The notes beneath the pieces were generated by a model, which did no database searches, was not told the origin of the DNA, and worked only from the letters and a program-made list of their open reading frames with translations. DNA of 64,000 bases from Methanomassiliicoccus sp. (GTDB lineage: Archaea > Thermoplasmatota > Thermoplasmata > Methanomassiliicoccales > Methanomassiliicoccaceae), in contig JAAYAX010000004.1 in NCBI GenBank assembly GCA_012719175.1, forward strand, positions 558,001 through 622,000. The letters are read 5' to 3'. Of the stretch, positions 510-26,653 are shown in pieces. Made by a program: the position numbers and the translations under genes. The stretch's first letter is position 1. The number at the start of each line of letters is the position of its first letter.

Positions 510-1265
510 CTAGCGGTGAGTTATCTTGTTCCATAGCCCTGCCGTCCTCCTCCCGGCCTTTAACACCGCTGAGTAGTCCTTGAGGTAGGAGTGGCGTGCG
601 GTGACCTGGCCCCCAAAGCCTCTCTTGAACCTGTTAATCCTCTCCATCTCCGGGTCTGGATGCGCGTCCGAGTAATATCCTCCCAGATCGAAGCTGCTCA
701 ACCCCTTGTTGTATGCATAGTTGATCGCCTCCCAGACCAGCAGTCGGTTGCCGAAGCTGATCATCTTCTGAATGCTCTCATCAGTCTCCAATCTTCGGGA
801 GACCGCCTGCAGGCCTCGCATGTACTTATCATCATGTATCGCTAAATAGCCACAGAGTATCTGGCCATTTAGCTCGGCAGTGAACAATGTCCCATGATCT
901 CTGATGAAGTCCTCAGAGTAGTTATACGGGGCGAGCTTTTTGGATCTTCTGAAGTCCTTATTCATCTGGATGAACTCTACAATATGCGCGTTCCTGTTGA
1001 CCGTGAAACCCTCTTTCTCCGAGCGCCGGATGAACTTCCTGCAGTCCCCGGCCATGTTCTCCCAAACTGGATCCAATCCATGGGAGAGGTCCAGGACCAG
1101 CGTGGACAGTGTTTCACGAGAGAACCCTTTGGCATCTACCACGTCTATGCAGTGGAGATGGCAGATGCTATCTATGCCCTCATCATCATAAGGCCTGTCG
1201 CTGAACCATACTGTGCGCAGCTTGAACATTGATATTTTTTTATCGGTCACCAGAGGCATGATCAT
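510..1265 (-). CDS. FemAB/GNAT-like acyl or aminoacyl transferase
   Basis: A 251-residue protein whose C-terminal half has the layout of FemAB-like GNAT (Acetyltransf_6) domains: a basic N-terminal lobe with CRKFIRRSEKEGF, then FTAELNGQILCGYLAIH, a long helix ending NRLLVWEAINYAYNKGLSSFDLGG and the closing RFKRGFGG. The FDLGG...RFKRGFGG pair is characteristic of this family, which in bacteria transfers amino acids or acyl groups to cell-wall precursors or exopolysaccharide. Archaea lack murein, so here the acceptor is likely a surface glycan or its lipid carrier (inference from the neighbours). Two ATGs (1265 and 1259) open the frame and a third sits at 1229; no strong ribosome site separates them. 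It is divergent from the beta-helix gene. Confidence 0.75.
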   Translation of the reverse strand: MIMPLVTDKKISMFKLRTVWFSDRPYDDEGIDSICHLHCIDVVDAKGFSRETLSTLVLDLSHGLDPVWENMAGDCRKFIRRSEKEGFTVNRNAHIVEFIQMNKDFRRSKKLAPYNYSEDFIRDHGTLFTAELNGQILCGYLAIHDDKYMRGLQAVSRRLETDESIQKMISFGNRLLVWEAINYAYNKGLSSFDLGGYYSDAHPDPEMERINRFKRGFGGQVTARHSYLKDYSAVLKAGRRTAGLWNKITHR

Positions 1266-1696: not shown

Positions 1697-4600
1697 ATGG
1701 ATAAAATATATAATAAAAAGAATAGAAATAGGAATATTCGTTTTATCGCGATAATCGTCGCCTCCATCATGTTGTCATCAGCGACCTTGGTCTTCCTAGG
1801 CACCGATGAGGCGGCCGCGGCTCCAGACTATTCCTATATCGTGAGTAAGAACACGAGCGGAAAGACAGTTGTAAAGAGCGCCTACGGTTACACTGCGTAT
1901 TCCTCATCAACCTCCAACAAGGCGATCCAATGGGCCATAGATCATAGCGCCAGCGGTAAGACCGTCCTGATAAATGCTGGAACCTATGCCTTGATGAGCG
2001 GCCTCACCATGAAAAGAGGAGTGACTCTCAGTGGAGTGGGTGACAACACCGTCCTTAGGAACGGGGAGATCGATGTTTTCACATCGAATGTCGTCATTCA
2101 ATCCCTTCGTATGGAAGGGACATGCCATATCCTGATCGCCTCCAAAAGGGCCGCGATCTCAAATATCGTCGTCCAGGATGTATCGGCCACCACAGGGGTC
2201 ACTCCTGAGGTATTCTCGGTCAAGGCCGCCACCTACAAGGTGTCGTACGTAAAGTTCATCCGTGATACGGTCACCAACAGTGCCGCTAACGGTTTCACCA
2301 TCAATGGAGAGGGGCCGGTCAGTGACATACTGTTCGATTCCTGCAAGGCCATCAGCAACGGCCTGACAAACCGCCCTAACGATTGGGTCGTGGGTTTCGC
2401 TTTGGACGGTAGCAATTCCTTGATGCAGAACGTGAAAATGGTAAATTGCGAGGCCTCCTACAGCTGGGAGAGCGGCTTCTTCCTCAGCCCTTCGATCTCC
2501 AAGACCGGGGTGGTCCTACAGGATTGCGTGGCCAACTATAATGGCCAGAAGCCTAACGCCCAAGAAGGTTACGGATACTTGCTGGATTCCTCGGTCAGCA
2601 TGATCGACAGCACCGGGGTGGGTAACAAGGGTGGGTTGACCAACCTGCAGCCTGCGCCTCAGCCAGTCGAGAAGAAGGAATCTACGATGACCATTACCGT
2701 ACCATCCTCCTCCATAAACACGGGGAGCAGCATGGTGGCCTCCGGTGTGCTGAGCAGTGAAAGCTCCTCTGGCTCTGTACTTATAAGCGGGGCGACCGTC
2801 CGTCTATCGGTAAAGTTGCCTGATGGTACGAACGTCAACCCCGTCGAGGGTTCGACCGCTGTCACTGACTTGAGCGGTAGGTTCACCATGAGCTATGCAC
2901 CTGCCACCGCCGGAACGGTGACCTTTGCCGCCACCTTTGATGGTGATGGTAGCTATGACGGGACCTCCGCTAGCGTGTCCTTCACAGCGGTCGCACCGGC
3001 GCCGCAGAAGACCGCGTCCTCGGTGACCCTGACCCTAGCTTCCAGCAACGTGGAGACCGGGAGCAGTCTCCATGCCGACGGTGTGCTGAAAGGCTCGTCC
3101 CCCATACCTGATGCCACTGTCAGCCTCGCGGTCACGCTGCCCGACGGCAACACCGCGAACCCTGAGAAGGGAGCGACGGCGGTGACGGATGCGTACGGCA
3201 GATTCAGCATGGACTACGTACCGTCCACGGCTGGGACCTATAAGTTCACAGCCACTTTCGGTGGGAACGAACAGTATATCGGGTCCTCGACGAGCGCCTC
3301 GTTCAACGTTGTAGCGCCGACCCCGACACCTACGACCACTTACGACTACATCGTGTCGAACAACGTAGTCAAGGGGCCCACCGGCAGCACCGCCTATACC
3401 GGCTCGAGCTTCACTGCCGCCCTGAACTGGGCCTGCACTCAGACAGGAAGGGTCGTGTACGTTCCTGCAGGAAGCTATTCCCTCAGCGACAACATCAACT
3501 TCGCTAGCGGCGTTACGCTGATGGGCGATGGGGCCATGAGCACGGTGTTCACCTTCACCACCAAGAGCATGAAGTACGCGGACTACTCCGACGCCAGCTT
3601 CCATGTGAAGGACGTTGATGGTGTGACCCTGAAACAGTTTGGGATCACCGGCCAGGGCTGCGTGCGATTGTCCTCCACGTCGGGCACTCACGGCGGCCAC
3701 GTCGTACAGGACGTGACGGTCTGGGACACCAACTACATGGTGGTCAACGCCTTCGGCACCTGGGTCTCCAGGGGCACGGGCGCCAGCGTGAACGACATCA
3801 AGTTCATACGCTGCGTAGCCTACAACGTGGGCGGCAACGGCTTTGCCATCATGGGCAACTTCCCGTGGAGCACCGGAACAGCAGGGACCCAACACAACAT
3901 CTACTTCGAGGACTGTAAGGCCCTGTACTGCGGATACACCAACGATATTTGGGATTGGACCGTCGGCTTCGACCTGGTGGAGCAGTGCCACATCGACAAG
4001 GTCACTCTGGTCCGGTGCGAGGCCTCATACAATTGGGAGAGCGGGTTCCACCTGGAGTACGGACCGACGGTCACGGACTGCGTGTTCCAGGACTGCGTGG
4101 CCAACTACAACGGGCAGTCATACTCCGATCCCCGGGGAGCGGTGTGGGGGGCTGGCTATCTCACCTTCGGCTACCAGGATGTAACGAAGACCAGATGCAC
4201 CGGCATCGGTAACGCTGGGGGTACCTTCTACAGCGCGGACCGCTACCCTGTCGAGCAGAAGACCGTCTCCGGCTACGGGTACACCTATTCTGTTTCCGGA
4301 ACAACGGTGAAGAACACTGGCGGCACGACCGTGTACACCGGCTCCAGCTTCACCACAGCCCTGCAGTGGGCCTGCAGCCAGGCCAACGCTGTGGTGCGCA
4401 TACCTGGGGGCACCTATTCGGTGACGGGACAGATCACCCTCGCTAGCGGCGTTTGCCTCTACGGCGGCATCGACCTCAACGAGTGGTTCTCCAGCCCCGG
4501 AAGTCCTACTATACTGAACTTCCCGGGTACCAGCGCCGATGAGGGCTTCGCCATCCACAATGTGGACAACGTGCGCATGAACCTGCTCCGCATAAACAAC

Positions 4601-5152
4601 GGGAACGTGGAGATAACTGCAGATGGCGGGGATACCGTCAGCAACATCAAGCTGAGGGGTCTCATAGTGAACGAGGCCTCGTCCCTGCACCCCGCGGCCA
4701 TATACTCGTACTGTGCCAGCGGCTCGACCATAGACGGTCTGGACATAGGCGCGTGCGAGGCCAAGGCGGCGCACACCGACGGCTTCCGATTTGCTGGTGC
4801 TGGCAGCAGCACCAACGCCTGGCTCAAGAACCTGAAGCTGACGTGCTGCAATGCTCTGAGCTGCGGTCAGACCTCGCCGAGGTACGGCGACAGTGTCGGC
4901 TTCCGGCTCGGGGAAGGTGTGAACATCCAGACCGTCACCGTGGTGGGCTGCGATGCGGAGTACAGCTACTGCTCGGGCTTCTACTTCAGTACTGGAAGCC
5001 AGATCAGCGGCAGTCTCACCGATTGTGAGGCCCAATACAACGGTCAGAAGGGCGATACCGCCAACGGTGCAGGGTACCAGCTCAACGGATACCCAGTGAC
5101 GATGACGAACTGCGTGGGGACCGGGAACATCGGACCGCTGGTCCGCGCGTGA
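1697..5152 (+). CDS. Large secreted triple beta-helix surface protein with two Ig-like domains
   Basis: 1151 residues. A basic N-terminus and hydrophobic stretch (about 15-36) ending in AAAA give a signal peptide. Three homologous right-handed beta-helix (PbH1/pectate-lyase-like) modules lie at about 44-320, 548-850 and 853-1151; each starts with a (Y)xYxVS...TxYTGSS-type segment followed by a VxIPAGTY-like strand and ends with a DCVANYNGQ-like turn. Between the first and second are two tandem Ig-like domains (about 325-430 and 433-540) with the ATVRLSV...TAVTD.GRF pattern of Ig-like/invasin repeats. Beta-helix folds usually bind or cleave polysaccharide; no catalytic residues can be assigned. 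Its place at the head of a glycan locus suggests a cell-surface polysaccharide lyase, epimerase or glycan-binding protein. The first 20 codons are strikingly AT-rich, the rest GC-rich. Confidence 0.88.
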   Translation: MDKIYNKKNRNRNIRFIAIIVASIMLSSATLVFLGTDEAAAAPDYSYIVSKNTSGKTVVKSAYGYTAYSSSTSNKAIQWAIDHSASGKTVLINAGTYALMSGLTMKRGVTLSGVGDNTVLRNGEIDVFTSNVVIQSLRMEGTCHILIASKRAAISNIVVQDVSATTGVTPEVFSVKAATYKVSYVKFIRDTVTNSAANGFTINGEGPVSDILFDSCKAISNGLTNRPNDWVVGFALDGSNSLMQNVKMVNCEASYSWESGFFLSPSISKTGVVLQDCVANYNGQKPNAQEGYGYLLDSSVSMIDSTGVGNKGGLTNLQPAPQPVEKKESTMTITVPSSSINTGSSMVASGVLSSESSSGSVLISGATVRLSVKLPDGTNVNPVEGSTAVTDLSGRFTMSYAPATAGTVTFAATFDGDGSYDGTSASVSFTAVAPAPQKTASSVTLTLASSNVETGSSLHADGVLKGSSPIPDATVSLAVTLPDGNTANPEKGATAVTDAYGRFSMDYVPSTAGTYKFTATFGGNEQYIGSSTSASFNVVAPTPTPTTTYDYIVSNNVVKGPTGSTAYTGSSFTAALNWACTQTGRVVYVPAGSYSLSDNINFASGVTLMGDGAMSTVFTFTTKSMKYADYSDASFHVKDVDGVTLKQFGITGQGCVRLSSTSGTHGGHVVQDVTVWDTNYMVVNAFGTWVSRGTGASVNDIKFIRCVAYNVGGNGFAIMGNFPWSTGTAGTQHNIYFEDCKALYCGYTNDIWDWTVGFDLVEQCHIDKVTLVRCEASYNWESGFHLEYGPTVTDCVFQDCVANYNGQSYSDPRGAVWGAGYLTFGYQDVTKTRCTGIGNAGGTFYSADRYPVEQKTVSGYGYTYSVSGTTVKNTGGTTVYTGSSFTTALQWACSQANAVVRIPGGTYSVTGQITLASGVCLYGGIDLNEWFSSPGSPTILNFPGTSADEGFAIHNVDNVRMNLLRINNGNVEITADGGDTVSNIKLRGLIVNEASSLHPAAIYSYCASGSTIDGLDIGACEAKAAHTDGFRFAGAGSSTNAWLKNLKLTCCNALSCGQTSPRYGDSVGFRLGEGVNIQTVTVVGCDAEYSYCSGFYFSTGSQISGSLTDCEAQYNGQKGDTANGAGYQLNGYPVTMTNCVGTGNIGPLVRA

Positions 5153-5328: not shown

Positions 5329-6519
5329 GTGAGAGCGGTGAGGGTCCTCATCCTTGGTAAGTGGCCAGAAGGTTCCCCCCAAAACGGCGTGGAGGCCCAC
5401 TTCTCGAACCTGGCATGCCATCTGTCCGATGAGATCGACGTACACGTCCTGTCGTTCGGGAAGATCTCCGATCAGTTCTCGGTTAATGGGGTGCATGTTC
5501 GGACCATTGAACGGAAGAGGGTCTACCGGGCGCTCCCTCTTCTTGCACTACAGATATTGTTGAGGGATATCAAAGCAATCAATCCAGATATCGTTCATGT
5601 CCAGGGGTCCAATCCTAGCCCGTACTTGTACGCCACGCTCCTGCATTCACGTTGCCCGATGGTGATCACCATGCACGGGCTGAGCGTCCATGAGAGAATA
5701 GCTGAGGGCAGCATGGCCGAGGGGGGCGTGAAGCACCGCTGGGCCAGCTTCTCTGACGTTGCCATGCTGAGGAAGGCGGATCTCGTCATAGTTGTCGACA
5801 GTAAGAAGAAAGACATGCTCATCCAGCAAGGTCACGATGCCAGTAGAATAGAGTGCATCCCCAACGGCGTGGACGTGAACATACTTCAAACTGGTCTGAA
5901 CGATGAGAGCATCGAAAGAGTATGGGAGCGGTACCAGCTTGGAACTGGCAGGAAGGTGCTCTGCGCCAAGGCCATGATGCCCAACAACGGTCAAGGTTAC
6001 CTCGTTCAGGCGATGAGGCTCCTTGTGGAGCGGGATCCTGCCCTGGAGCTGCTATTAGCGGGGAATGGTCCTGAGAGGGACGGATTGATAAAAATGGTGA
6101 GGGAGCTGGGGATCGAACGTAACGTGCGTTTTCTGGGAGATGTGCCCCATGAGGACATACCGGCACTGCTGCACCTAAGCTCTATGGCCGTACTGCCATC
6201 GCTCAGGGGCAAGGGGGCGGAGGAAGGCTCCAGCATCTTCCTGCTTGAGGCTATGGCGTTAGGGAGGCCGGTGGTCGCCACGAACATCGGCGGAAACCCC
6301 GAGACGATAATCGACGGTATGACCGGCCTTCTGGTCCCAGAGAGAGATCACGAAGCTCTATCCCATGCCATGTGGTCATTGCTCGATGATGGTTATCGAG
6401 CTCGGGAGATCGGCCTTGCTGCTCGATCGTTCATAGCTGAGAACCGGAACTGGAAGATCATAGCCGATAGGTATGTCGAGCAATACCGCATCCTGATGGA
6501 GAAAAAGACCAGGATCTGA
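5329..6519 (+). CDS. Glycosyltransferase family 4 (GT-B)
   Basis: A GT-B fold glycosyltransferase of normal length (~396 residues). The N-terminal acceptor domain begins VRVLILGKWPEGSPQNGVE and carries NPDIVHVQG and the ITMHGLSVHE strand; the C-terminal donor domain has the GT4 pattern AMMPNNGQGYLVQA, RFLGDVPHEDIPALLH, and the nucleotide-sugar binding segment SSIFLLEAMALGRPVVAT with its EA glutamate. It would transfer a sugar from a nucleotide donor onto a growing glycan at the cytoplasmic membrane. The first codon is GTG at 5329; a second GTG at 5338 (VRVLIL) is equally compatible. It is convergent with the DUF354 gene, whose stop lies 5 bases away. Confidence 0.9.
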   Translation: MRAVRVLILGKWPEGSPQNGVEAHFSNLACHLSDEIDVHVLSFGKISDQFSVNGVHVRTIERKRVYRALPLLALQILLRDIKAINPDIVHVQGSNPSPYLYATLLHSRCPMVITMHGLSVHERIAEGSMAEGGVKHRWASFSDVAMLRKADLVIVVDSKKKDMLIQQGHDASRIECIPNGVDVNILQTGLNDESIERVWERYQLGTGRKVLCAKAMMPNNGQGYLVQAMRLLVERDPALELLLAGNGPERDGLIKMVRELGIERNVRFLGDVPHEDIPALLHLSSMAVLPSLRGKGAEEGSSIFLLEAMALGRPVVATNIGGNPETIIDGMTGLLVPERDHEALSHAMWSLLDDGYRAREIGLAARSFIAENRNWKIIADRYVEQYRILMEKKTRI

Positions 6520-8109: not shown

Positions 8110-9105
8110 ATGAAGCTGAGACTCCGTTTGAAGGGAACTTACTATCCTCGACGCGCGGGTCCGTCGATCCTCCCTAACGCTGAAACGCCGCTGAGCATCC
8201 CCACCTATGAAGGTTCGAATCAGGTGGTCCACCCCTCGGTCATCGATTTCTCGCTCGAGCATGGCATCCCACAGTGGCACGGATACCGTTACTGGATGGT
8301 ACTGACCCCGTTCCCGTACAGCAACGACTCCTTCGAGAACCCATCCCTTTTCGTCAGCAATGACGGTATCGTGTGGACAGTACCTCCGAACGTGAAAAAC
8401 CCACTCGCCACCGCGCCCGGTGGCATGAGAGCGGGCTTCAATAGCGATCCCGACATGGTCTATGATCCTGACGCAGACGAGGTCCGCATCTACTACCGCT
8501 TCACCTCCAAAGAGCAAATGACGCTGAGGATGATCCGCATCTCCGATGTTACCAGCGCACCGGTGGACGTGATAAAATATTCCCCGTGGAAGGAGGTGGA
8601 CAACAACTTCCGCTCCCCGTGCATATGGAGAGAGTCAACGGACCGGTGGCATATGTGGGGAGGTGGCAGAGAGAGAGCGCCGTACGGGATCTTCTATCGG
8701 TTCAGCAGGGATGGTATCTCGTGGGAGCGCCCACAGCAGTGCGTCGATGACCTAGGCGGTGATCCCTTCGTTCGTTCAGGTTTCACCAACTGGCATATGT
8801 CATGCAAGCCCGATCGTAGCGAGGGCAGGGCAGTGTTCCTCAGCTGTGCTTACCCTCTTGAGAGTATAGGCCTGGGCGTCATCCTGCATGCCGAGTGTAA
8901 GAACGAGTATCCGACCACCTTAACGACGCCGATAAACCGACCGGTCCTGCTACCGACAGAGAGCGGCTGGGATAACGAGACGCTATACAGGTGCAGCTTC
9001 ACCCTCGGTCCGGGAAATGATCATTACAACATCTGGTACTCTGCCAGGTCCAAGAACGGCGTGTGGAAGTTGGGGCGAACATCTGGCTACGTGCGGATGG
9101 GATGA
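8110..9105 (+). CDS. Five-bladed beta-propeller glycoside hydrolase-like protein
   Basis: 331 residues without a signal peptide. The repeats read like the blades of the GH43/GH32/GH130 superfamily: HPSVIDF..., ENPSLFVSNDGIVW, DPDMVYDPDADEVRIYYRF, SPCIWRES..WHMWGGG, GIFYRFSRDGISWERP and FTLGPGNDHYNIWYSA. A blade pattern of acidic residue plus W/Y strand is clear, but I cannot assign catalytic acids with certainty. Such cytoplasmic propellers occur in exopolysaccharide clusters, perhaps trimming or rearranging repeat units. It is the first gene of a plus-strand run (8110-12937) with tight spacing, so it probably shares a transcript with the pyruvyl transferase, QueC-like and flippase genes. TTAGGAGG supports the ATG at 8110. 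Confidence 0.78.
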   Translation: MKLRLRLKGTYYPRRAGPSILPNAETPLSIPTYEGSNQVVHPSVIDFSLEHGIPQWHGYRYWMVLTPFPYSNDSFENPSLFVSNDGIVWTVPPNVKNPLATAPGGMRAGFNSDPDMVYDPDADEVRIYYRFTSKEQMTLRMIRISDVTSAPVDVIKYSPWKEVDNNFRSPCIWRESTDRWHMWGGGRERAPYGIFYRFSRDGISWERPQQCVDDLGGDPFVRSGFTNWHMSCKPDRSEGRAVFLSCAYPLESIGLGVILHAECKNEYPTTLTTPINRPVLLPTESGWDNETLYRCSFTLGPGNDHYNIWYSARSKNGVWKLGRTSGYVRMG

Positions 9106-9159: not shown

Positions 9160-10060
9160 ATGAGCAGTCACAATCGAAAAAAAGGGGGGCGATCTGTTCA
9201 AGAGGTGGACGTTCAGGGATAAGCTCGATGAGCTTAGCAAGGGATCGTTAGCGGACATCATTGACACCTACAAGACGCTGGTCAGCGAGGATTACATTCT
9301 CGCGGAGTGGTACTCTGTCGTCAGGAACTGGGGCGATAGTCTAAATCCCGTGCTCATCGAAGCCCTCTCCAAGAAGAAGCCCTTACTGTTCCGGAACTTC
9401 CTGAACGTCTACGATAGGCCGGTGTACATGGTCGTGGGGAGCCTACTTCATACACCCCGTGTGAAGAACGCTCAGGTGTGGGGCACAGGGCTCATCTCCG
9501 ATGCAGAAGTGGTTGTCGCGAAACCGAGGAAAATCTTCGCGGTCAGAGGCCCCCGGACGAGGGAGATGTTGCTGAAACAAGATATCTCCTGCCCCAAGGT
9601 GTTCGGTGATCCCGCGCTCCTTTTCCCCTCCATATACTGTCCAGATGTGATGAAAGAGTATAGACTGGGGATAATACCTCATTACATGGACACTTCCTCC
9701 CCGCTCCTGAGCGGGTATAGGAACGTGGAAGGGGTCAAGATCATCGACGTGGCCAGCGACGTCCACGAGTTCGTCCGCGATGTCTGCAGCTGTCGGGCGA
9801 TCGCCTCGAGCTCGCTGCACGGCTGCATCGCGGCTGATGCGTACCACATACCCTCCCTGTGGATCAAGATAACGGGCAACATAAGAGGTAAGGACTTCAA
9901 GTTCCACGATTATTATGAGAGCATCGGACATGAGAATGCAACTCCGTTCTCATTGGCCTCGGCCGAGGATGCTGATGAGCTTGTTGATGAATGCCAGATA
10001 AAGGAGATCAATCTTGATCTCGCAGAGCTCAGGAACGCGTGCCCCTTCCTTGCCGAATAG
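9160..10060 (+). CDS. Polysaccharide pyruvyl transferase, interrupted by a one-base frameshift
   Basis: The long open part (from 9190 onward) contains the family's signatures: RNWGDSLNP, GTGLISD, AVRGPRTREMLL, VFGDPALLFP, LGIIPHY, and the SSLHGCIAADAYHIPSLWIK segment typical of ketal pyruvyl transferases. In that frame no usable start exists before a GTG at 9350, which would delete RNWGDSLNP. An ATG at 9160, preceded by GGAT, reads MSSHNRKKGG and then leaves the frame at a run of seven A and six G (9177-9189). Removing one base from either run joins it to DLFKRWTFRDKL and gives 299 residues, the usual length. So the gene is either mutated, mis-sequenced or slippage-dependent. Its product would add pyruvate ketals from phosphoenolpyruvate to glycan sugars. 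Confidence 0.82.
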
Positions 10061-10093
10061 ATCATGTGTTATTACTGAGAAGGAATGCTCCAA

Positions 10094-11335
10094 ATGTTAA
10101 CGATACACCATCCAGAAGTGATAGAGCGCGAGAATGAGACGATCCTCCAGGCAAGGATCGAGTCCAAGGAACTTGACGAGGTGCTGTGGTTCTCCACGTC
10201 GAGTGAGTACGGCAGGTTCCTGTGCCATGAGAGGGGTGATGCGTTCCTCGTAGCCCTGTTCTTGTACGCGATGAGGCGAGGGATGGATATCACGGTCGAG
10301 GCCCCCGTGTCCGAGCGCCTATACTACATGCTGACCAAACACCTTATGCCGACCATCACCACGATCTTTCCACACTGCCACCTCGTCAAGGTACACTGCC
10401 CGCTGGACGAGGGGCACCTTGACTCCGCCGGTGCGGTGGGGGTGGGGTTCAGTTGCGGCGTGGACTCGATGTACACCATCTCAAAGCACACCAAGGAGGA
10501 CTGTCCTCAAAGCCGCAAGCTGACCCATTTGGCGTTCTTCAACGTCGGCGCCAGCGGGGACTTCGGAGGTGATGTTGCCCGCGACCTGTTCCGCCGGGGC
10601 GCGGAGGCGGTCCGACCGTGCGCCGAGGAATTGGGACTTCCCATGGTCACATTGGATTCCAACCTCAGCGAGATACTGATGATGAACTATGTAGCGACCT
10701 ACGTGTATCGCAATGCCGCCGCGGTGCTGGCACTTCAGAAGCTGTTCAACGTCTATTACTTCTCCTCCGGTTACTCCCTACGCCAGTTCGAGTTGAGCCC
10801 CGCAGACTCCGGCCACTATGACTTCTACTCGCTCAGCATGCTGTCGACCAACGATACCGAGCTGGTCATGTCCGGCGAGACGTTATCGCGGCTGGAGAAG
10901 ACCGATGTAGTATCTGAGTACCCTCTCTCGTATAGACATCTATGCGTATGTGTCCGCGCGGAGAGGAACTGCTCGCGGTGCTTCAAGTGCCAGAGGACCA
11001 TGGTGACCCTCGATGTGCTCGGGAAGCTGGACCGCTACGGCGCAGTGTTCGATCTGGATCACTACCAGGCTCACCGTTCGCGGTACATCGGCTCGGTCAT
11101 CAGCGACCGCAAGGCAGACTCCTATAAGCAGGATATCTATGAGGAGATGGTGCGCCGTAACTTCGCCTTGCCCACTGCTGCCCGAATTTTCCGTTATCCC
11201 CTCGCGGCCGCCCACACCGCGCACAGAAGGACACCTCATACGCTCAAGAACGCGTACTGGAAGGTGTTCCGAGTGGGTATGGCTTGCAGCCCCCACTTCG
11301 TGAAGGTCCGCTACCGCCGCATGAAGCGACTGTGA
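10094..11335 (+). CDS. QueC-like PP-loop ATP-dependent enzyme
   Basis: About 413 residues. A PP-loop ATP-pyrophosphatase motif VGFSCGVDSMYT (SGGVDS-like, near residues 118-129, second Gly replaced by Cys) is followed by LTHLAFFNVGASG and, near residues 283-299, a cysteine cluster CVCVRAERNCSRCFKCQRTM whose C-x2-C-x2-C-x-R end resembles the zinc site of QueC (7-cyano-7-deazaguanine synthase). QueC relatives adenylate a carboxylate for amide or nitrile formation. The N-terminal ~110 residues do not resemble QueC. AGAAGGA sits 9 bases before the ATG at 10094 but directly abuts the ATG at 10085, so I use 10094. The gene is embedded between pyruvyl transferase and flippase, implying a role in glycan modification; the substrate is unknown. 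Confidence 0.75.
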   Translation: MLTIHHPEVIERENETILQARIESKELDEVLWFSTSSEYGRFLCHERGDAFLVALFLYAMRRGMDITVEAPVSERLYYMLTKHLMPTITTIFPHCHLVKVHCPLDEGHLDSAGAVGVGFSCGVDSMYTISKHTKEDCPQSRKLTHLAFFNVGASGDFGGDVARDLFRRGAEAVRPCAEELGLPMVTLDSNLSEILMMNYVATYVYRNAAAVLALQKLFNVYYFSSGYSLRQFELSPADSGHYDFYSLSMLSTNDTELVMSGETLSRLEKTDVVSEYPLSYRHLCVCVRAERNCSRCFKCQRTMVTLDVLGKLDRYGAVFDLDHYQAHRSRYIGSVISDRKADSYKQDIYEEMVRRNFALPTAARIFRYPLAAAHTAHRRTPHTLKNAYWKVFRVGMACSPHFVKVRYRRMKRL

Positions 11336-11371: not shown

Positions 11372-12937
11372 ATGAGCGACGCCCCCGTCGACATCAAGTT
11401 CGCGCAGCGGTTCCCCCGCAACCTCTTGACGAACGTGGTGTACTTCACGTTGAGCATCGTGGTGGGCCTCTTGCTCGTCCCCTTCTTCATAGGCACGCTG
11501 GGAACGGCGGCCTACGGATTGATCCCGTTGGCGACTTCGATCACCAGTTACATCACCATCGTGATCGACTCCCTGAACCTCTCCATCTCCAGATACCTGA
11601 CCGTGGACTTGCAGCGCGGGGACATGGGGAAAGCGAGCGAGACCTTCAGCACCGCCCTCATCGGCATCCTGGCCTTCGTCCTGGTACTGACGCCCTTCCT
11701 CCTAGTAGCCGCATGGTACGCCCCCTCGTTCTTCAACATCGGAGATCAGGCAGCCGGGGAGGTGTTCCTGCTATTCGCTATGGTCTTCGGCTCCATGCTG
11801 GTCACCGCATGGGGGGCGAGCTTCACGGTGGTGTTGTTCGCTCATAACCGACTGGACCTTCGCAACTACGTGTACACTGTCAACCTGGCAGTGCAGCTCG
11901 TTACAGTGGTGTTGTTCTTCCTTTCCCTAGGACCGTCACTAGCACTGGTCGGTCTCTCCTACCTGCTGGCATCGATAGTCTCCGTGGGGGTGGCCGCGTT
12001 CCTGGCAAGCCGCGTGTGCCCCGGACTGCGACTTTCTAGGAAGCTGTTCGTGCGCTCGCGTATGCACGAAATATCTATCATGTCATCATGGGTGCTGTTC
12101 AACGGCATCGGGCTGCTGCTCAACACCCAGGTCGCCCTGTTCATCGTCAACAAGATCTTCGGTGAGGTCTCTGGCAGCGAGTACGCGCTGGCGGTGGTGT
12201 GGGGCTCCCTACTCGTAAGCATTGCCGGCCTGCTGACCAACCTGTTCACCCCCATGACATATTCATACTACGCGCGGCAGGACCATGGTGGTCTGGTCAG
12301 CTTTACGACCATGGCGGTCAAGATCAGCGGCCTGTTGATGGCGCTGCCCGTCGCCCTGGTGTGTGTGTTCTCATCGCTGCTGCTGACGCTATGGGTCGGT
12401 CCGGAGTTCGCGCACCTCGCGCCCCTAGTGTGGATCCTGGTGGCGCCGGTCATCCTACAGATCATGGTCTCCTGCATCTCGCCGATCACCGTAGCCTACG
12501 ATAGGGTCAAGGGCCTGGTCTTTCTGACCCTCCCGCTGGGCATCGCAAACATTCTGCTCGCGGTGTTATTCTCCTATACATTGGGTATCGGCATGTACGG
12601 TGTAGCCCTCGCCGGCCTGGTGACGCTCATCATCCGCTATGGCCTGGTGAACCCGGTGTTCATCGCCAGCGTCGTCCACGTGCCCCTCCTCACGTACGTC
12701 CGGAAGATGTTCTTCGGCGTAGGGGCAGTGGCGCTCCTGTCCTTGGCAGGCATTGTTGTGACCTCGTTGATAGGTGTTACAACGCTTCCGATGCTCCTGA
12801 TAGTTGCAGGTGTAATCTCTGGAGCGTACCTTCTGATGATGCTCAAGCTGGGCCTGAGCCCCAAGGAAAGGGAACTGATACAATTGAGCCTACCAGGAAT
12901 GTTGCAGAAAGTGATCCCGGCATGGCTGTTCCACTGA
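11372..12937 (+). CDS. Polysaccharide flippase, MATE/Wzx superfamily
   Basis: 521 residues with about 14 hydrophobic segments and the typical N-terminus of Wzx-type oligosaccharide translocases (FPRNLLTNVVYFTLSIVVG, then GTLGTAAYGLIPLA). Such proteins move lipid-linked repeat units across the cytoplasmic membrane. GTGAGGA precedes the ATG at 11372 by 7 bases. It starts 36 bases after the QueC-like gene on the same strand, which suggests cotranscription. The alternate frame over 11359-11847 is a GC-driven shadow. Confidence 0.88.
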   Translation: MSDAPVDIKFAQRFPRNLLTNVVYFTLSIVVGLLLVPFFIGTLGTAAYGLIPLATSITSYITIVIDSLNLSISRYLTVDLQRGDMGKASETFSTALIGILAFVLVLTPFLLVAAWYAPSFFNIGDQAAGEVFLLFAMVFGSMLVTAWGASFTVVLFAHNRLDLRNYVYTVNLAVQLVTVVLFFLSLGPSLALVGLSYLLASIVSVGVAAFLASRVCPGLRLSRKLFVRSRMHEISIMSSWVLFNGIGLLLNTQVALFIVNKIFGEVSGSEYALAVVWGSLLVSIAGLLTNLFTPMTYSYYARQDHGGLVSFTTMAVKISGLLMALPVALVCVFSSLLLTLWVGPEFAHLAPLVWILVAPVILQIMVSCISPITVAYDRVKGLVFLTLPLGIANILLAVLFSYTLGIGMYGVALAGLVTLIIRYGLVNPVFIASVVHVPLLTYVRKMFFGVGAVALLSLAGIVVTSLIGVTTLPMLLIVAGVISGAYLLMMLKLGLSPKERELIQLSLPGMLQKVIPAWLFH

Positions 12938-13043: not shown

Positions 13044-13994
13044 ATGAAGGATGTTCCAGCTGTATCGGTCGTCATACCCTTGTTCAACAAAGGTCCCTAC
13101 ATCGGCCGCGCGCTGAGATCTGTGTTCAAACAAACCTTTCAGGACCTCGAGGTCATCGTGGTGGATGATGGATCCTCTGACGATGGGGGGAATGTAGTCA
13201 CCAACTTCAATGATCCGCGGATCACCCTCATAAGACAGGTGAATAGGGGAGTATCAGCAGCGAGGAACAAGGGCATCGCTGCCGCAAGGGCGGAGCTGAT
13301 CGCTTTCCTGGATGCGGACGATGAGTGGTTCCCAGACCATCTGGAAACACTGATCCGATTGAGGAATAAGTTCCCTCGATCAGGTGCGTACGCGACCGCC
13401 GTCCTGTTGAAGACCGAGGGTTCTGAATATAAGATGGCGCCCTTCGCCGAAATACCGAAGGCACCGTGGGAGGGGATCCTGCCGAACTACTTCCGGGCGG
13501 CGGCCATGGGCAATCCTCCAGTGTCATCGACCACGGTCGCCATCCCGAGAGCTGTCTTGACGGATATGAAGGGGTTCTCCGAGGAAGCGTGGTGGGGTGA
13601 GGACACCGACCTATGGGGCCGCATCGCTCTACGGTATTCCATAGCGTTCAGCTGGGAGGGCGGGGGTATATATCACATCGATGCCGCGAACCGAGCTTGC
13701 AACAAGATCAAGCCGGTGCCTATGAACGCATTCGTCGTCCACGCACAGAAGGTGCTTCAGGCGGGTGAGGTCCCTGAGGGGCTGCATGATGATCTGCTGG
13801 AATACATTGCTGTCAAGCAGATCGAGACCGCGGATAGGAATACGGAGGCCGGAAGACCGGACCTCGCGCGGGAGATCCTGAGGAATGTGGACACCAAGCA
13901 TCTGGGGCGTCGAAGGCGGTTATCGATGCTAAAGACATACATTCCTCATCGGATCCTCATTGCCACGAGGAACTGGAACCAGGCTAAGGAGTAG
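13044..13994 (+). CDS. Glycosyltransferase family 2 (GT-A)
   Basis: 316 residues. The GT-A nucleotide-sugar fold is clear: SVVIPLFNKGPYIGRALRSV, VIVVDDGSSDDGG, the VSAARNKGI segment and the metal-binding LDADDEW (DxD-like), followed by the acceptor region with EDTDLWGRIAL (ED motif). It probably adds a sugar to the lipid-linked glycan made by this locus. A GGTGA site lies 4 bases before the ATG at 13044. About 106 bases separate it from the flippase, and a short T-run (12970-12976) lies between, so it may have its own promoter. No transmembrane segment is present, so membrane association would be peripheral. Confidence 0.9.
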   Translation: MKDVPAVSVVIPLFNKGPYIGRALRSVFKQTFQDLEVIVVDDGSSDDGGNVVTNFNDPRITLIRQVNRGVSAARNKGIAAARAELIAFLDADDEWFPDHLETLIRLRNKFPRSGAYATAVLLKTEGSEYKMAPFAEIPKAPWEGILPNYFRAAAMGNPPVSSTTVAIPRAVLTDMKGFSEEAWWGEDTDLWGRIALRYSIAFSWEGGGIYHIDAANRACNKIKPVPMNAFVVHAQKVLQAGEVPEGLHDDLLEYIAVKQIETADRNTEAGRPDLAREILRNVDTKHLGRRRRLSMLKTYIPHRILIATRNWNQAKE

Positions 13995-19608: not shown

Positions 19609-20010
19609 CGGCACCGTTGGTCGCTCCTGAACGCACAGGAGGTCTGTACGGTCAATGGTCTCCTAGACTCTTATAGATCGATGAGTAGGGCGCATGTCGT
19701 TCCTATCTGTTCCTGTCGCAGCGCTTCATCGGGTCTCGTTGCATGGAGCGACCTGCAGAAGATGGAGGGATGGCGATGGCAGCTAAGGTCAAATGAGGGG
19801 GTAAAAGGAAGATAGTGGTCCAAATCTTTTACGATGTAAGCCATTATTTAATGTATCGAAGTTATCTGGCAGGTTGATGGCCACAGCCTCGGGGAAGTTA
19901 GGAAATCATCTGATTGCCCCCCAAGCCTATTTTCCGATGATCGCCGCACAAAACACCTCATTACTTTCCGATGGGGGTGAAGCGTTCTGAAGAGCCCTTT
20001 TAGCAGGGCC
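19609..20010. promoter_or_regulatory. Divergent intergenic region
   Basis: About 400 bases between the permease (minus) and the flippase (plus). The minus-strand TATA ATCTATAAG is at 19670-19678. A T-rich TTATTTAATG near 19845 is the weak best candidate for the rightward promoter. No other feature is recognised. Confidence 0.35.
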
Positions 20011-21255
20011 ATGGTCGATGTGCAATGGGCCTTCATAAGCGTTGTCACAGCATCCTTGGCCCACTTTGTTCTGAGAGTGGTCCTCGGAAGGGAGCTGGGG
20101 GCCGAAGGCCTTGGGATATATACGCTAGCGTTCACGATATATCTCCTGGGTCAGCAGTTCGCCGCTTTCGGGATCGGTTCTGCACTAACACAATATGTCG
20201 CCGAGCATCTCGACGATCATCTGACGATCCGCAAGCTCGTCTCGTCCGGAATGACCTCATCCATCATCACTGGCACCTTAATGGGTGTCGTCCTCTTCCT
20301 CCTCTCGCCGGTCATCGCCAATTCTCTCTTCCATACGCCTGAACTGGAGAACATGATCCAGCTCGTTGCGTTCTCCTTCCCCTTCATCGCCATCCAGAAG
20401 GCTGTCCTCGGTACCCTTAATGGTTTCCGGAAAATGAGCCGATTCGCTTATCTTCAGATCGCCCAGAACGTTTCTGTTGTCGTCATCTCCATAATACTAG
20501 TAGGATCCTTACATATGGGGGAGCTCGGTGCCACCGTCGGCCTAGTTGGGCCTACGATCATCGTTAGCCTGTTGAGCCCTCTTCTCATAAGGGAGCATCT
20601 CCGGCGTGACGGCTCTCACTGGGACGTCACAGCATTGAAGATAACCACCATCTTTGGACTCTACGTCGTCCTGGGGAACGCCATCAGCTTTCTTAATACC
20701 CAGATAAATTCGATCCTCATCGGATACTATATGACCCCCACCGAGGTAGGGATATTCGCCGTCGCAGCTCTCCTGGCACAGGTCTTGACTCTCATGCCCA
20801 GCGCGGTCCAACGGGTAACGGCACCGTCCATGGCGGCCAAGTATGGAAAGGGGGACATGGAAGGTGTGAGAAGGATCTACTATTCCACCCTGAAAAAAAG
20901 TTTTCTCATTACCATCATTTGCGCATCCATCATTGCTGTACTTGGTCCCTACATCATCACTTTCTTTTTCACGAACGAGTACAGCACCGCCTATGAGCCG
21001 CTTTTGATCCTGCTTCTAGGATATGTATTCGCCGCATCGTTCGGAGCTGTTGGGGCTACCCTATCCAGCATTGGCCGAGTCAATGTACCTTTCAAGATAG
21101 GTGTGATTTGCACCATCTTGAACATCGCACTGAACGTCCTGCTCATTCCTCACATGGGCATGAACGGGGCTGCAATTGCTACAGCCGTGACCTTGATTCT
21201 CAATTTCGTAATAACCATATGGGCAATACAGATATACCTCAGAAGAGTGCACTGA
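20011..21255 (+). CDS. Polysaccharide flippase (Wzx/RfbX type)
   Basis: 414 residues with about 12 hydrophobic segments. The opening WAFISVVTASLAHFVLRVVL then GRELGAEGLGIYTLAFTIY is the classic Wzx N-terminus (R.LG.e.lGiy.la), and the middle KAVLGTLNGFRKM is the conserved cytoplasmic loop. It should flip lipid-linked oligosaccharide for the second glycan locus. Homologues usually carry about 10 more residues at the start; the same frame is open upstream to a TGA but has no standard start codon before ATG 20011. It faces the polymerase-like gene 91 bases away. Confidence 0.88.
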   Translation: MVDVQWAFISVVTASLAHFVLRVVLGRELGAEGLGIYTLAFTIYLLGQQFAAFGIGSALTQYVAEHLDDHLTIRKLVSSGMTSSIITGTLMGVVLFLLSPVIANSLFHTPELENMIQLVAFSFPFIAIQKAVLGTLNGFRKMSRFAYLQIAQNVSVVVISIILVGSLHMGELGATVGLVGPTIIVSLLSPLLIREHLRRDGSHWDVTALKITTIFGLYVVLGNAISFLNTQINSILIGYYMTPTEVGIFAVAALLAQVLTLMPSAVQRVTAPSMAAKYGKGDMEGVRRIYYSTLKKSFLITIICASIIAVLGPYIITFFFTNEYSTAYEPLLILLLGYVFAASFGAVGATLSSIGRVNVPFKIGVICTILNIALNVLLIPHMGMNGAAIATAVTLILNFVITIWAIQIYLRRVH

Positions 21256-21346
21256 TACGTGGATCAACCTGCTAGTAAGGGCCCTGTATGCGATTCAAAT
21301 ATTTGCCGATATCTTGAAAGAAAGGACTGAGGCCCTTTTATGTACC

Positions 21347-23068
21347 TTACTGATCGAACAGATGTATTGACAGCCAAGAATCCTGGTATATCTTACCTGC
21401 GTTCGGTGAGCTGTTGATCTCTAACAACTTGGGCAATAGTGAGGATCTCGTCGTGTGTATCTGAATAGGCAGTCCTGCGCTCATGGTCGCGTGATCGATA
21501 ATCACATATTGCCCATCGGTATCGTTTATTCGTGCATCCCCGACCAGCTGAGCGTAAACATCGGTGTTAAGATGCTCATAACCAAATGTAGGTTTGGCCA
21601 CTTGAGCTTCATATTGCAGGCTCTTACCAATGATATTGAAGTCAGCAAAAATTTCCTGTGATTCTCCGTTCACGTGTCTATAGCTCCATTGGAAGCTGTT
21701 CTCTACTTCTGCAAACTTCGTAACAGAGGTCTCCCCAGCCTGATTTGTACAATACATCGTAACTAGGCAGATGGCACCTAGCAAAAGAAGCGCGACCATG
21801 CAGTAGGATATAATTTTTGCGGCACTGAATCGTCTTCTGAAAAGTTGCTTGTCATTGTAGCTCAGAAATGCATAAATGGCCATCATTGGGAACAATGTGG
21901 GAATATAAACAAAGTTGATGGAGTTCGACTGATAGTAGAGGAATACTATCACTACTTGAGCTATCACCAAGCCCAACAGCAGGACAAATGAGTTCCGGGA
22001 CACCTGGTCCTTAATCTGTGTTCTGCGAGTGATGTGTGGCCATAAGTGCTTGTGAAGTACGACCAATACCATCAAACACGATACAGCTAGCAAGATCATA
22101 TAAGATATAAAATAGATAGAGCCCAGGGCAGAGTCCTTGTAGTTATATTTATAGGGGACCTCGAAGGCAATCTGGCCTGTCAATTTATTCACTGCTTCAT
22201 CAATGAAGTCCAGGAGGTTAGCGTTCTGCATGAAACCATCAAGATAACTGGTCTGCCACAAGTGAATAAAGGTGATAGCACATACAACTGAAATCAGGAC
22301 CAGTGCCGTCATGTTGCGAAAATTATTGTTGCTCCAATGGTAATTGGATTGTTCATTCGGACCTACTCTCTCATTGAACTTCGCGATAATTAATGTGAAA
22401 TAGACAGCCCATACGGACACAAAGAGTATCATTAGGATCATGAGAGCGGTGTGCCAGTAGTGTGCCAGGCTAATCAATATGATGATGGTGAGGAGATAGA
22501 ACCGCAAGTCGTGTGTTTGGGTGAATTTCCAGAAACATAGCATCCCGATGAATATCAGTGTATATCCAGGGGTAGCTGCATAGAAGGAAGATGTTGATTT
22601 TGTGGTGAATAGGAACAATAGGCCGTAGACTGCAAGGATAAGGTAGGGGAGGGGATACTTTTCTCTGTTTATCAAGGAGTTCAGCAGGCCGAGGTATGAG
22701 ATGGGCACAATAACCAGGCCGAAGGGGATGATGACCGTTAGCTCTGGCGAGATGTCAAGAAGATATATCATGATCATATGGATGATGGCCGTGTTGGGTA
22801 GGTAGGATTCTGTCTCCGCCACACGCTGGGCAATGGATGATATGGTAGTATCAATTGGGAGGGATTCCGGGGGGAACATGGGGAACGCGTAAAAGTTCGG
22901 GCTCACATACCCGTTCAGAAGCATCTCCAGGTATGCACTGAATATTGTGGGGAATCTCTGGAAATCGACCTCCTTCGAAAAATTAACAATGAGGAGTATC
23001 GGAAAGAGAGTGAAGTATACAATTCCGATTATTTTTAATGCTCTTCGACTGTTCAATGACAATGCCAA
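21347..23068 (-). CDS. Multi-spanning membrane protein, polymerase or lipid-sugar glycosyltransferase-like
   Basis: 573 residues with about 11 hydrophobic segments in the first 440 and a soluble C-terminal ~120 residues on the outer face. The long loop after helix 1 (NGYVSPNFYAFPMFPPESLPID) and the general layout resemble GT-C proteins and archaeal surface-glycan polymerases, but I see no unambiguous DxD motif in the first loop, so the assignment is by topology and context. It starts at TTG preceded by GGTGGG. Codon use is AT-rich compared with flanking chromosome, as for the next gene upstream. It is the last gene of the minus-strand group 26653-21347. Confidence 0.6.
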   Translation of the reverse strand: MALSLNSRRALKIIGIVYFTLFPILLIVNFSKEVDFQRFPTIFSAYLEMLLNGYVSPNFYAFPMFPPESLPIDTTISSIAQRVAETESYLPNTAIIHMIMIYLLDISPELTVIIPFGLVIVPISYLGLLNSLINREKYPLPYLILAVYGLLFLFTTKSTSSFYAATPGYTLIFIGMLCFWKFTQTHDLRFYLLTIIILISLAHYWHTALMILMILFVSVWAVYFTLIIAKFNERVGPNEQSNYHWSNNNFRNMTALVLISVVCAITFIHLWQTSYLDGFMQNANLLDFIDEAVNKLTGQIAFEVPYKYNYKDSALGSIYFISYMILLAVSCLMVLVVLHKHLWPHITRRTQIKDQVSRNSFVLLLGLVIAQVVIVFLYYQSNSINFVYIPTLFPMMAIYAFLSYNDKQLFRRRFSAAKIISYCMVALLLLGAICLVTMYCTNQAGETSVTKFAEVENSFQWSYRHVNGESQEIFADFNIIGKSLQYEAQVAKPTFGYEHLNTDVYAQLVGDARINDTDGQYVIIDHATMSAGLPIQIHTTRSSLLPKLLEINSSPNAGKIYQDSWLSIHLFDQ

Positions 23069-23268
23069 CTTCCCACCACACGAAACTCAACGATCCAAGA
23101 CGAAGATTTTTATTTGCGGAAGAGACGATCTTTGCTCCATCAGCTATGGCACTCAACATATAAGGGATGAATCGTGCCGTCCTAACTGCTGGCCACAATG
23201 CACTACAATATTATCAAACATTTGATTCCAATAGGCAGTTCGAGGAAAAAAGAGTTGGTGATGTGCGC

Positions 23269-24453
23269 TTAATGGAAGTCATTCACATCAGATGGAGGTG
23301 ATCCCAATGCCTGCCGGTACTGTTGCACTAGCTCCCGAGATACGTTCTCCCAGGTGTACTGTTGCGCATATTGGACAATGGCCTCTCTATCCCATTGCCT
23401 GCCCAACGCCGATAACAGTTTTTCCGCAAGGTCGCTAGAGCTACCAGGCTCCACAAGAAGGCCGTACTCGTCAGAAGTTATGACCTCTGGCACACCTCCT
23501 ACCCTTGTTCCAATGAAAGGTTTCCCACATCCGAGGGCCTCGAACATGACGGTGGGATTTCCTTCGCTGAGGCTGGGTAGAGTGAAGACGTCGCATGCAT
23601 TCATCCAGAGTGGTAGTTGATCTCCGGGGACTCTACCTAGCAGCTTGACACTACTTTCGAGGTGAAGTTGATTTATTTGCTCTTTAAGCCTGTCGTATTC
23701 CACACCAGACCCCCCTATATAACACAATATATCATTCCTGTGCTCACAGACAGATGTCATCGCGTTTATGAGATAGTCGAATCCCTTACGTTCTCTCAAT
23801 AACCCTAGGGAGAAAATTATCTTGGCTCCGATTGGCAGAGCTAACTTCTCTCTTGCCATTGTGGTGTCCATGGGGTGAAAACTCGGTGAGAAACCGTTCG
23901 GTATCGCAACTGTGCTCTCATTGAAATGCTTGAGAGCCTTAACATCCTTCTTATTCACCCTGATAAGGATGTTGGCTCCCGACCATGCCATCTTGAGGTA
24001 CGGATGGTTCATTTTAATCTCCCTGTCTAACCAATCAGTGTTTTCGTGGACGGTGGTGAGAACGGGCACATGGTATTGTTGCCTTAGCTTGGCGGCAATA
24101 TATCCTGACGGCCACGTAAAGTGAGCGTGAATCAGATTAAAATGAATGTTTTGTTTATCGATAGTTCTCTTGACAACCCTCGTTCTCCCATCGATAACTA
24201 CCTTATTCAGCCAAGAGATGGGTATGTAAAAGCATCTGGGAAAGTTTACCTCCACATTATCATAGGAATAATCTTTACAAGCCTTGTCCTTCTTTACATA
24301 CCCGAAGGAACGGAATACTGGCGAGATTACCGTTATCTTGTTAAAAAAACGTTTTAATTCAGCCACTTGGTTTTTTATGAAAACTCCACCAATAAAGGAA
24401 TCGTCTTCACTGGGGAATGATGGGGCAATGATCAACAGGTCATGGTCTTTCAA
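23269..24453 (-). CDS. Glycosyltransferase family 4 (GT-B)
   Basis: 394 residues with a GT-B layout: N-terminal DLLIIAPSFPSEDDSFIGG, NLIHAHFTWPSGYIAAKL and VLTTVHENTDWL; C-terminal IIFSLGLLRERKGFDYLINA, VKLLGRVPGDQLPLWMNA and the donor-binding FTLPSLSEGNPTVMFEALGCGKPFIGT with EGNPTVxFEA, the usual GT4 E-x7-E pattern. It is a cytoplasmic or membrane-bound sugar transferase. The frame opens at TTG, with GGAGG 9 bases before it. It is noticeably AT-rich, suggesting acquisition from another genome. Confidence 0.9.
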   Translation of the reverse strand: MKDHDLLIIAPSFPSEDDSFIGGVFIKNQVAELKRFFNKITVISPVFRSFGYVKKDKACKDYSYDNVEVNFPRCFYIPISWLNKVVIDGRTRVVKRTIDKQNIHFNLIHAHFTWPSGYIAAKLRQQYHVPVLTTVHENTDWLDREIKMNHPYLKMAWSGANILIRVNKKDVKALKHFNESTVAIPNGFSPSFHPMDTTMAREKLALPIGAKIIFSLGLLRERKGFDYLINAMTSVCEHRNDILCYIGGSGVEYDRLKEQINQLHLESSVKLLGRVPGDQLPLWMNACDVFTLPSLSEGNPTVMFEALGCGKPFIGTRVGGVPEVITSDEYGLLVEPGSSSDLAEKLLSALGRQWDREAIVQYAQQYTWENVSRELVQQYRQALGSPPSDVNDFH

Positions 24454-24555
24454 TAAGCTTATCCTCCCACCCTCTTATGCCCAGGCATAATAGTTGACAT
24501 AATGGAATGCCCTTAACGTTATAAGTTCTCTTGCGTCCTTGCAGAATGAGATTGG

Positions 24556-25653: not shown

Positions 25654-25687
25654 GTCTTACTCAACGGTAATGACATCGACTGGCCTA

Positions 25688-26653
25688 TTAAACCTTCTTT
25701 CCCTCCATTCCGATCTTCCCGCCCCTCTTCAGCACGAATCCCAGGTACGCCATACCGAGACCTACGAGCGAGAGGACGATGAGCATGCCCACTGGCGACT
25801 CTGCAGGCTTGGGGGTCCCCATGATGCTCAATGGGGTGATAAGCGAGAGAGTGGCGACGGTAAAGCTCATGCTAGACATGCCACCACCGATAACCATCAC
25901 GCTGTTGGCCTTGCGTGCGGACTTGCTCATGTTCTGGTAGTTGAGGCGCCATATCAGCTCATTGAAGAGCAGGCGGGAGATCCTTATGATGTATTTCGGA
26001 TAGGCGATCTTCGACCTCTCCCTACCATAGCGCGCTGGGATCACCACGTCCTTGATCTTGAACCCGTAGGTGGAGAGCTTCACCAGCATGTCGTTGCAGT
26101 AACCATACCAGGTGAAAATCGATCCAGGGCTCATCTTCTTGAAGACGTGGTTGGAAATGGCTGTGTAACCATTCTGGGGGTCGTTGATCTTGTTGTTGCC
26201 AGCCGCGAACCTCGTAAGGAATGTAAGAATGTTGTTACCCAGGTACCTGAAGTCGCTCATGCCCTTAGCGGTGGTGCGTGATTCGAGCCTGTGACCTTTA
26301 GCGTAGTCGGCCTCCCCGTTGACAATGGGGTCCAGGAGCTTCGGCAGCTCCCTAGGGTCCATCTGGTTGTCGCCGGCCATGACCGCGGTGATGTCCATTT
26401 TGTCCGCGAACGATCGAGAATAACCGGTCACTATGGCCGCTCCGACTCCCTTGTTGGTCTCATGTCGGATGTATACGAAGCGGGGGTCCCTCGACGAGAA
26501 CTCCTGGACGCGCTCCTCCGTCCCGTCCTTCGACCCATCGTTGACTACGTAAACACGGTCGACATAACTGGGAATACCGCTCAATGTGTCTTGAATAAGC
26601 TCTTCCTCGTTGTATGCCGGTATGACTACCGCTACGGTTGATTGTCGATACAT
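25688..26653 (-). CDS. Glycosyltransferase family 2 with C-terminal membrane anchor
   Basis: 321 residues. GT-A domain at about 1-230: VAVVIPAYNEEELIQDTL, VYVVNDGSKDGTEE, NKGVGAAIVTGYSRSF, AVMAGDNQMDP (DxD-like AGDNQMD) and the dolichol-phosphate-mannose-synthase type LTRFAAGNNKINDPQNGYTAI. Two hydrophobic helices follow (about 250-275 and 285-308) and a short basic tail. Such enzymes charge dolichyl phosphate with a sugar for archaeal N-glycosylation. It is the first gene of the minus-strand group. Confidence 0.9.
   Translation of the reverse strand: MYRQSTVAVVIPAYNEEELIQDTLSGIPSYVDRVYVVNDGSKDGTEERVQEFSSRDPRFVYIRHETNKGVGAAIVTGYSRSFADKMDITAVMAGDNQMDPRELPKLLDPIVNGEADYAKGHRLESRTTAKGMSDFRYLGNNILTFLTRFAAGNNKINDPQNGYTAISNHVFKKMSPGSIFTWYGYCNDMLVKLSTYGFKIKDVVIPARYGRERSKIAYPKYIIRISRLLFNELIWRLNYQNMSKSARKANSVMVIGGGMSSMSFTVATLSLITPLSIMGTPKPAESPVGMLIVLSLVGLGMAYLGFVLKRGGKIGMEGKKV

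Follow-up and report, generated by a model that had tools for sequence, protein, structure and literature searches.

What does an enzyme with a predicted QueC-like catalytic core do among the surface-glycan genes of an archaeon? The question is raised by a gene in a 64,000-nucleotide stretch of DNA from Methanomassiliicoccus sp. (the window, meaning the whole stretch that was analyzed), for which an earlier note, made from the letters alone, had suggested ATP-dependent amidation or acylation of a sugar acid or of a pyruvyl-ketal carboxylate. The best-supported answer lies at the level of enzyme class, namely, an ATP-dependent, AMP-forming PP-loop enzyme of glycan biosynthesis with a probable zinc site. 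We propose more tentatively that the protein is a PP-loop ATP-pyrophosphatase, pairing an N-terminal domain particular to its family with a catalytic domain of the QueC type, that acts as the partner of a polysaccharide pyruvyl transferase (PT) in surface-glycan biosynthesis and amidates a glycan carboxylate.

The open reading frame (P0001) spans positions 10085 to 11335 on the forward strand and encodes 413 to 416 amino acids. Because the second ATG, at 10094, lines up with the family N-terminus (M-[IL]-x-I), it is favored over 10085 as the start, in agreement with the earlier note. The FSCGVDS PP-loop and the QueC-type cysteine set are present where they had been described (Table 1), the latter closed by C302-x-R304. 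P0001 by itself had no useful match in Pfam, NCBIfam, PADLOC, or PHROGs or among the sequences of the PDB.

Table 1. The PP-loop gene, its motifs, and the surrounding glycan genes, by position in the window
Feature	Position	Strand	Basis
PP-loop protein gene, QueC fold	10094..11335	+	ORF call, alignment, predicted fold
PP-loop F-SCGVDS, residues 122-128	10448..10468	+	Sequence, family alignment
QueC-type four-cysteine motif C289-x6-C296-x2-C299-x2-C302, probably zinc	10949..10990	+	Sequence, alignment
Polysaccharide pyruvyl transferase (PT)	9164..10060	+	PF04230 above cut-off
Wzx-like flippase, directly downstream of the PP-loop gene	11372..12937	+	Clusters with flippases beside bacterial relatives
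GT2 glycosyltransferase	13044..13994	+	Pfam
GT4 glycosyltransferase	5329..6519	+	Pfam
Protein with no family assigned (earlier note: propeller glycosidase-like)	8110..9105	+	No Pfam or NCBIfam match
FemAB/GNAT-like protein, about 9 kb from the PP-loop gene	510..1265	-	Just below Pfam cut-offs

About 65 relatives were gathered from at least eight phyla. A species-level genome collection yielded 41 loci, in Bacillota, Bacteroidota, Verrucomicrobiota, Kiritimatiellota, Lentisphaerota, Pseudomonadota, Melainabacteria, and archaea; six further archaeal genomes, with 18 copies, came from 400 searched in the class to which the window's genome belongs; and plasmid records contributed members from Paracoccus, Gloeothece, Azospirillum, Nostoc, Gemmobacter, Halorientalis, and Priestia, the fetched ones being annotated as "hypothetical protein." Cyanobacteria are also among the lineages that carry the family, and four loci lie in viral contigs; a search of a phage collection gave no match. 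The Pfam family matched by most members is DUF6395 (PF19932), with 14 of 40 (best E value, 8e-5) and with one displayed alignment falling on the zinc-motif region. The window protein itself does not match DUF6395, and a literature search for this family found no paper.

G125, D127, C289, C296, C299, K301, and C302 are invariant in the main alignment of 40 members, and S123, S128, and R269 are kept in 39 of them. With conservation at this level, the PP-loop and cysteine motifs are not chance occurrences. Judged from its sequence, the window protein probably carries zinc at the four-cysteine motif. The N-terminal 110 residues are unlike QueC, as the earlier note observed, though a domain of about 115 residues is conserved here across the family (Y42, R50, D52, and A53). 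The cysteine in place of the first loop glycine, also pointed out there, is present but is not peculiar to the window protein, being typical of its branch. The count of 38 of 40 for this cysteine is biased, since the genome-collection scan that yielded many of the members used a pattern containing SCGV, and it is therefore excluded as evidence; searches free of that pattern returned the loops SCGVDS, TMGVDS, SLGVDS, and SSGVDS. A sister branch (alignment A8, with members from Gloeothece, Azospirillum, Priestia, Nostoc, Gemmobacter, and Halorientalis) has canonical or near-canonical loops, mostly SGG[VLI]D[ST] (SGGxD[ST] in 7/10, S-x-G-x-D-[ST] in 9/10), and retains all four cysteines. Its profile aligns with that of the main branch (alignment A5) over both the N-terminal domain and the catalytic domain (hhalign probability, 99.9%; E value, 2e-32). 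Two mixed alignments, A1 and A3, were not used for the contig scan because of their divergence.

Genomes of the Methanomethylophilaceae (L002 to L019 and L030 to L042) hold up to four paralogues, several with C-terminal Sel1-like repeats, which we read by eye from the sequences, and some in tandem; PT is not near these copies. Loops or cysteines have decayed in L018 and L019, and L017 contains an in-frame TAG. Together with the replaced loop glycine, paralogues such as L018 and L019 would fit a protein that binds ATP without catalysis and whose role in the glycan operon is regulatory or that of a scaffold; the Gly-to-Cys change would then mark lost activity. We consider this improbable, as S, G, D, and S of the loop and the four cysteines are retained in 39 or 40 of the 40 members. 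CysD, a subunit of ATP sulfurylase, is active without the first loop glycine, which also counts against a noncatalytic role.

Structure prediction makes a QueC-like PP-loop fold almost certain for the window protein, in line with the earlier note. The AlphaFold2 model, computed from the window protein and 39 relatives (40 sequences), has a mean pLDDT of 88.7 and a pTM of 0.85; confidence is low in the tail that starts at residue 373. In the model, S-C-G-V-D-S follows a strand (residues 117 to 121) and leads into a helix (residues 126 to 135), so that the protein shows the mark of the PP-loop ATP pyrophosphatase superfamily, a Rossmann-like alpha/beta domain in which a beta strand precedes a loop of the SGGxD[ST] type. 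The top Foldseek match in a viral library was QueC of Achromobacter phage Motura (probability, 1.00; TMt, 0.61), and among the high-probability PDB entries with a sensible superposition the best was Cap9, a QueC-family anti-phage protein that shares the QueC fold (probability, 0.98; TMt, 0.62). NcsA (probability, 0.96) and TtuA were also among the PDB matches; matches to RNase H were set aside (mostly rmsd of 7 to 10 Å and low TM). All Foldseek E values were 0.001 or higher, and the fold was therefore assigned from the match probability, the order of the motifs, and the profile match of the sister branch. That branch matches the QueC profile at 87% over the loop and aligns weakly with Escherichia coli QueC with both motifs in order. 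Compared directly with the QueC profile, the window branch gives a weak match (34%); it is through the sister branch and the fold that the window protein is tied to QueC.

The matches to NcsA and TtuA, a single LarE match at an E value of 0.028, and iron-sulfur FrhB-like neighbors in relatives might suggest a sulfur-transfer enzyme of the NcsA, TtuA, or LarE kind that thiolates a sugar or carboxylate. This is very unlikely: the family has four cysteines with QueC spacing, whereas a three-cysteine [4Fe-4S] set is described for LarE (PMC13329287), and no sulfur-carrier gene was seen beside the PP-loop gene.

The family shares with QueC (PF06508 and TIGR00364; 7-cyano-7-deazaguanine synthase) the PP-loop catalytic domain and a C-terminal C-x6-8-C-x2-C-x2-C motif, which lies at the same relative place as the QueC zinc motif, C(x)8CxxCxxC, but has a first spacing of 6, not 8. 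It differs from QueC in the extra N-terminal domain, the Gly-to-Cys change in the loop, and the glycan neighborhood. Relatives give only weak matches to PF06508 and TIGR00364, below the curated cut-off, and P0001 gives none. The QueC substrate motifs YxQxHxxE, VPxRN, and YPDC, found in 11/12, 12/12, and 12/12 genuine archaeal QueC proteins, occur in 1/40, 0/40, and 0/40 family members. Several QueC substrate motifs have been tested by mutagenesis (PMC13329287). We reject a canonical QueC on the grounds that these motifs are essentially absent, that no match rises above the cut-off, and that the genome has a separate queC elsewhere. A second 7-deazaguanine enzyme of the QueC, QatC, or Cap9 type, acting on nucleobases or protein in an incidental glycan setting, would agree with QueC and Cap9 being the closest folds. 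The same motif counts and the separate queC argue against it, as do the lack of any PADLOC match to QatC or Cap9 and the recurrence of the glycan context, and we judge its likelihood to be slight in the extreme. QatC also has about 400 amino acids, an N-terminal extension, and the QueC fold, but its zinc motif, C(x)19CGxCxxRR (PMC13329287), is unlike that of the window family, and no qat or CBASS genes were found in the neighborhoods examined.

PP-loop enzymes of surface-glycan pathways are already known in the N-acetyl sugar amidotransferases (NASAT, including WbpG and WbuX; TIGR03573), bacterial and archaeal proteins that likewise combine a PP-loop with a tetracysteine set (PMC10607449). Their cysteines precede the loop (positions 3 to 41, with the loop at 66 to 80), whereas those of the window family follow it. 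As none of the 40 family members matches TIGR03573 and the profile comparison is poor (31 to 38%), we reject membership in this group. The enzyme could nonetheless make an amidine from an N-acetyl sugar as WbpG or PseA does, with ATP activating the amide oxygen and ammonia displacing it. The shared broad enzyme class and glycan setting would favor such a reaction, and there is an archaeal precedent in the acetamidino group of the Methanococcus maripaludis N-glycan, which depends on the WbpG homologue MMP1081 (PMC2952790); given the same differences in cysteine position and profile, we think it quite improbable. The Methanococcus N-glycans also carry a threonine substituent on mannuronic acid (PMC2952790). 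With these two precedents, the earlier note's claim that such a modification is unusual for archaeal glycans is wrong.

The asparagine-synthase-type uronamide synthases WbpS and WbqG make the type of product proposed here, a glycan uronamide, and the Porphyromonas gingivalis uronamide synthase gene lies downstream of wzx (PMC7468200). They belong to a different, AsnB-like PP-loop lineage, and the asparagine synthase family gave no match to the window's family. In a 2026 survey of the QueC family, the WbpG-containing cluster is the sole glycan-linked one among ten in the part available (PMC13329287), and the window's family is not among the ten as described there.

In the window, the gene order is PT, PP-loop gene, flippase, and GT2. 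The only PF04230 gene found in the 2.4-Mb genome and the only family member lie 24 bp apart; we estimate that two given single-copy genes would adjoin by chance in roughly one case in a thousand. The flippase, which the earlier note had named along with PT, gave no Pfam match, and its identity comes from clustering with bacterial Wzx-like flippases. The FemAB-like gene does show the similarity claimed, but it falls just short of the GNAT and FemAB cut-offs and is distant, and the databases lend nothing to the propeller glycosidase label (Table 1). Although GTG 9350 is the first start listed for PT, its frame continues upstream without interruption as far as the stop at 9161 to 9163, and this extended frame includes the expected NWGDSLNP motif. 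One ATG alone lies nearby, at 9160; it is out of frame and immediately precedes an A7-G6 run. The true 5' end of PT is uncertain, and these features point to a frameshift at the homopolymer, an error in sequencing, or a start codon that is not standard. Positions 1697 to 5152, which adjoin the glycan genes, encode a protein of 1,151 amino acids, probably secreted, that has Ig-like stretches and recurring segments resembling a right-handed beta-helix, both recognized by eye. A second glycan cluster occupies 20001 to 28000, with a second flippase (20011 to 21255) and glycosyltransferase-like genes, again by eye; its GC content is 0.46 to 0.49, compared to about 0.52 to 0.62 in most of the remaining window.

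Neighborhoods of the relatives carry the argument beyond a single genome. The genome scan supplied 32 bacterial loci, of which 9, 12, 16, and 18 have PT within 1, 2, 3, and 5 genes of the PP-loop gene, and none of 65 genes at least nine genes away is PT; 18/32 is a raw frequency, and PT may be common in capsule loci generally. It is missing within five genes in the other 14 bacterial loci and in all 8 Methanomethylophilaceae or Methanomassiliicoccaceae loci, several of these contigs being short. FrhB-like genes (F420 hydrogenase beta-type) occur within five genes in 13 of the 32 loci, flippases in 12, and PGA_cap in 4, and at least one glycan marker is present in 23; glycan neighbors recur across lineages, the pattern of a surface-glycan gene. 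The iterated PGA_cap model also caught family members through a fusion of PGA_cap to the PP-loop protein (L070, by Pfam), and the FrhB model caught another iron-sulfur protein in the window, so that per-locus marker counts are trusted only where independent counts and Pfam on representatives agree.

On plasmids, PT is directly upstream of the PP-loop gene in Gloeothece and in Azospirillum, where the pair sits amid non-glycan genes with no other obvious glycan gene close by; in Priestia, PT adjoins a tandem copy of the PP-loop gene, and in Gemmobacter it is two genes off. Comparison with PT profiles did not establish a PT fusion in the N-terminal 175 residues of the Paracoccus-type fusion proteins (only a short local match near R-G-x-x-T; probability, 1 to 2%). 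Two viral contigs (L085:5255-9104, 204 kb, and L086:7989-11842, 13 kb) hold the PP-loop gene with a PF04230 PT and glycosyltransferase-like genes, as if the virus modified its own or its host's surface glycans. FrhB-like and PT domains are fused in either order next to the PP-loop gene (L050:11223-13589 and L067:7641-10007), which implies linked steps; a literature search for F420-hydrogenase-like proteins with PT in capsules found no paper. The co-occurrence with PT anticipated in the earlier note thus extends to bacterial, plasmid, and viral loci. Of the two results that the note had named as counting against it, a predicted structure lacking the PP-loop fold and homologues with no tie to glycan genes, neither was observed. 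From this genomic context, the PP-loop gene very probably works in surface-glycan biosynthesis, and the functional coupling of its product to PT is likely.

An amidated carboxylate is proposed because QueC converts a carboxylate to an amide with ammonia (PMC13329287) and because PT supplies a carboxylate-bearing group. In the proposed reaction, the PP-loop would bind the ATP phosphates; a sugar linked to a nucleotide or a lipid would be adenylated at a carboxylate, either that of the pyruvyl ketal or that of a uronic acid, with release of PPi; ammonia or an amine would displace AMP to give the amide; and the adjoining flippase would export the finished unit. We infer that zinc is bound, that the protein is catalytically active, that it adenylates a carboxylate, and which nucleophile and sugar acid take part. 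By analogy with QueC, an amide on a glycan carboxylate is possible but somewhat less likely than not; no glutaminase-type ammonia donor is evident beside the window gene.

An amino acid or another amine, instead of ammonia, could be joined to the glycan carboxylate, giving amino-acyl amides, an outcome like that of MurC or TupA reached by PP-loop chemistry. Several loci carry TupA-type or sugar-transfer ATP-grasp genes, in keeping with amide chemistry on glycans, and an octopine dehydrogenase family gene and PGA_cap also occur near relatives. The Methanococcus threonine is attached to a uronic acid by an enzyme not identified in 2010 (PMC2952790), and QueC-family Cap9 links a carboxylate to a protein N-terminus (PMC13329287). 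We regard amine ligation as unlikely but worth weighing, as none of those partners adjoins the window gene and ATP-grasp enzymes could perform such a ligation themselves. In one sub-branch (L055, L057, and L064), a dehydrogenase-like gene is nearby, of the octopine/nopaline dehydrogenase family (PF02317) in L064; in L057 and L064, the sugar-transfer ATP-grasp genes are on the opposite side from it. Full cassettes might encode three successive steps like those of MurA, MurB, and MurC. The PT homologue would transfer an enolpyruvyl group to a sugar, the FrhB-like flavin/iron-sulfur protein would reduce this group to give a lactyl ether, and the QueC-fold enzyme would use ATP to amidate the lactyl carboxylate or to ligate an amine to it. 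We give this idea little credence; if true, such a pathway for decorating glycans would be one not yet described, and the window, in which no FrhB is adjacent, would hold its two-gene ketal version.

A maximum-likelihood tree groups the window protein with Clostridia/Bacilli members (L043, L044, and L045), apart from the other archaeal copies; the support, 93/95, is just below the threshold for starred branches. The PP-loop gene was not found in the other 14 genomes searched in the window genome's taxonomic family. Several of these have PT, and the PP-loop gene is therefore not required for pyruvylation. Placement in the tree and absence from genomes of the same family point to acquisition from bacteria of the PP-loop gene together with its glycan cassette.

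Returning to amidation, we conclude that the family is uncharacterized, unnamed, and widespread, while the kind of enzyme, a PP-loop enzyme of surface-glycan modification, is known. The enzyme may add an amide to a sugar acid group, a function with which the family has not been credited before. If the amidation reading is true, amide chemistry on cell-surface sugars would gain a further PP-loop route, and many PT loci with uncharacterized products, including those of gut Bacteroidota and Bacillota capsules, would gain a concrete chemical prediction.
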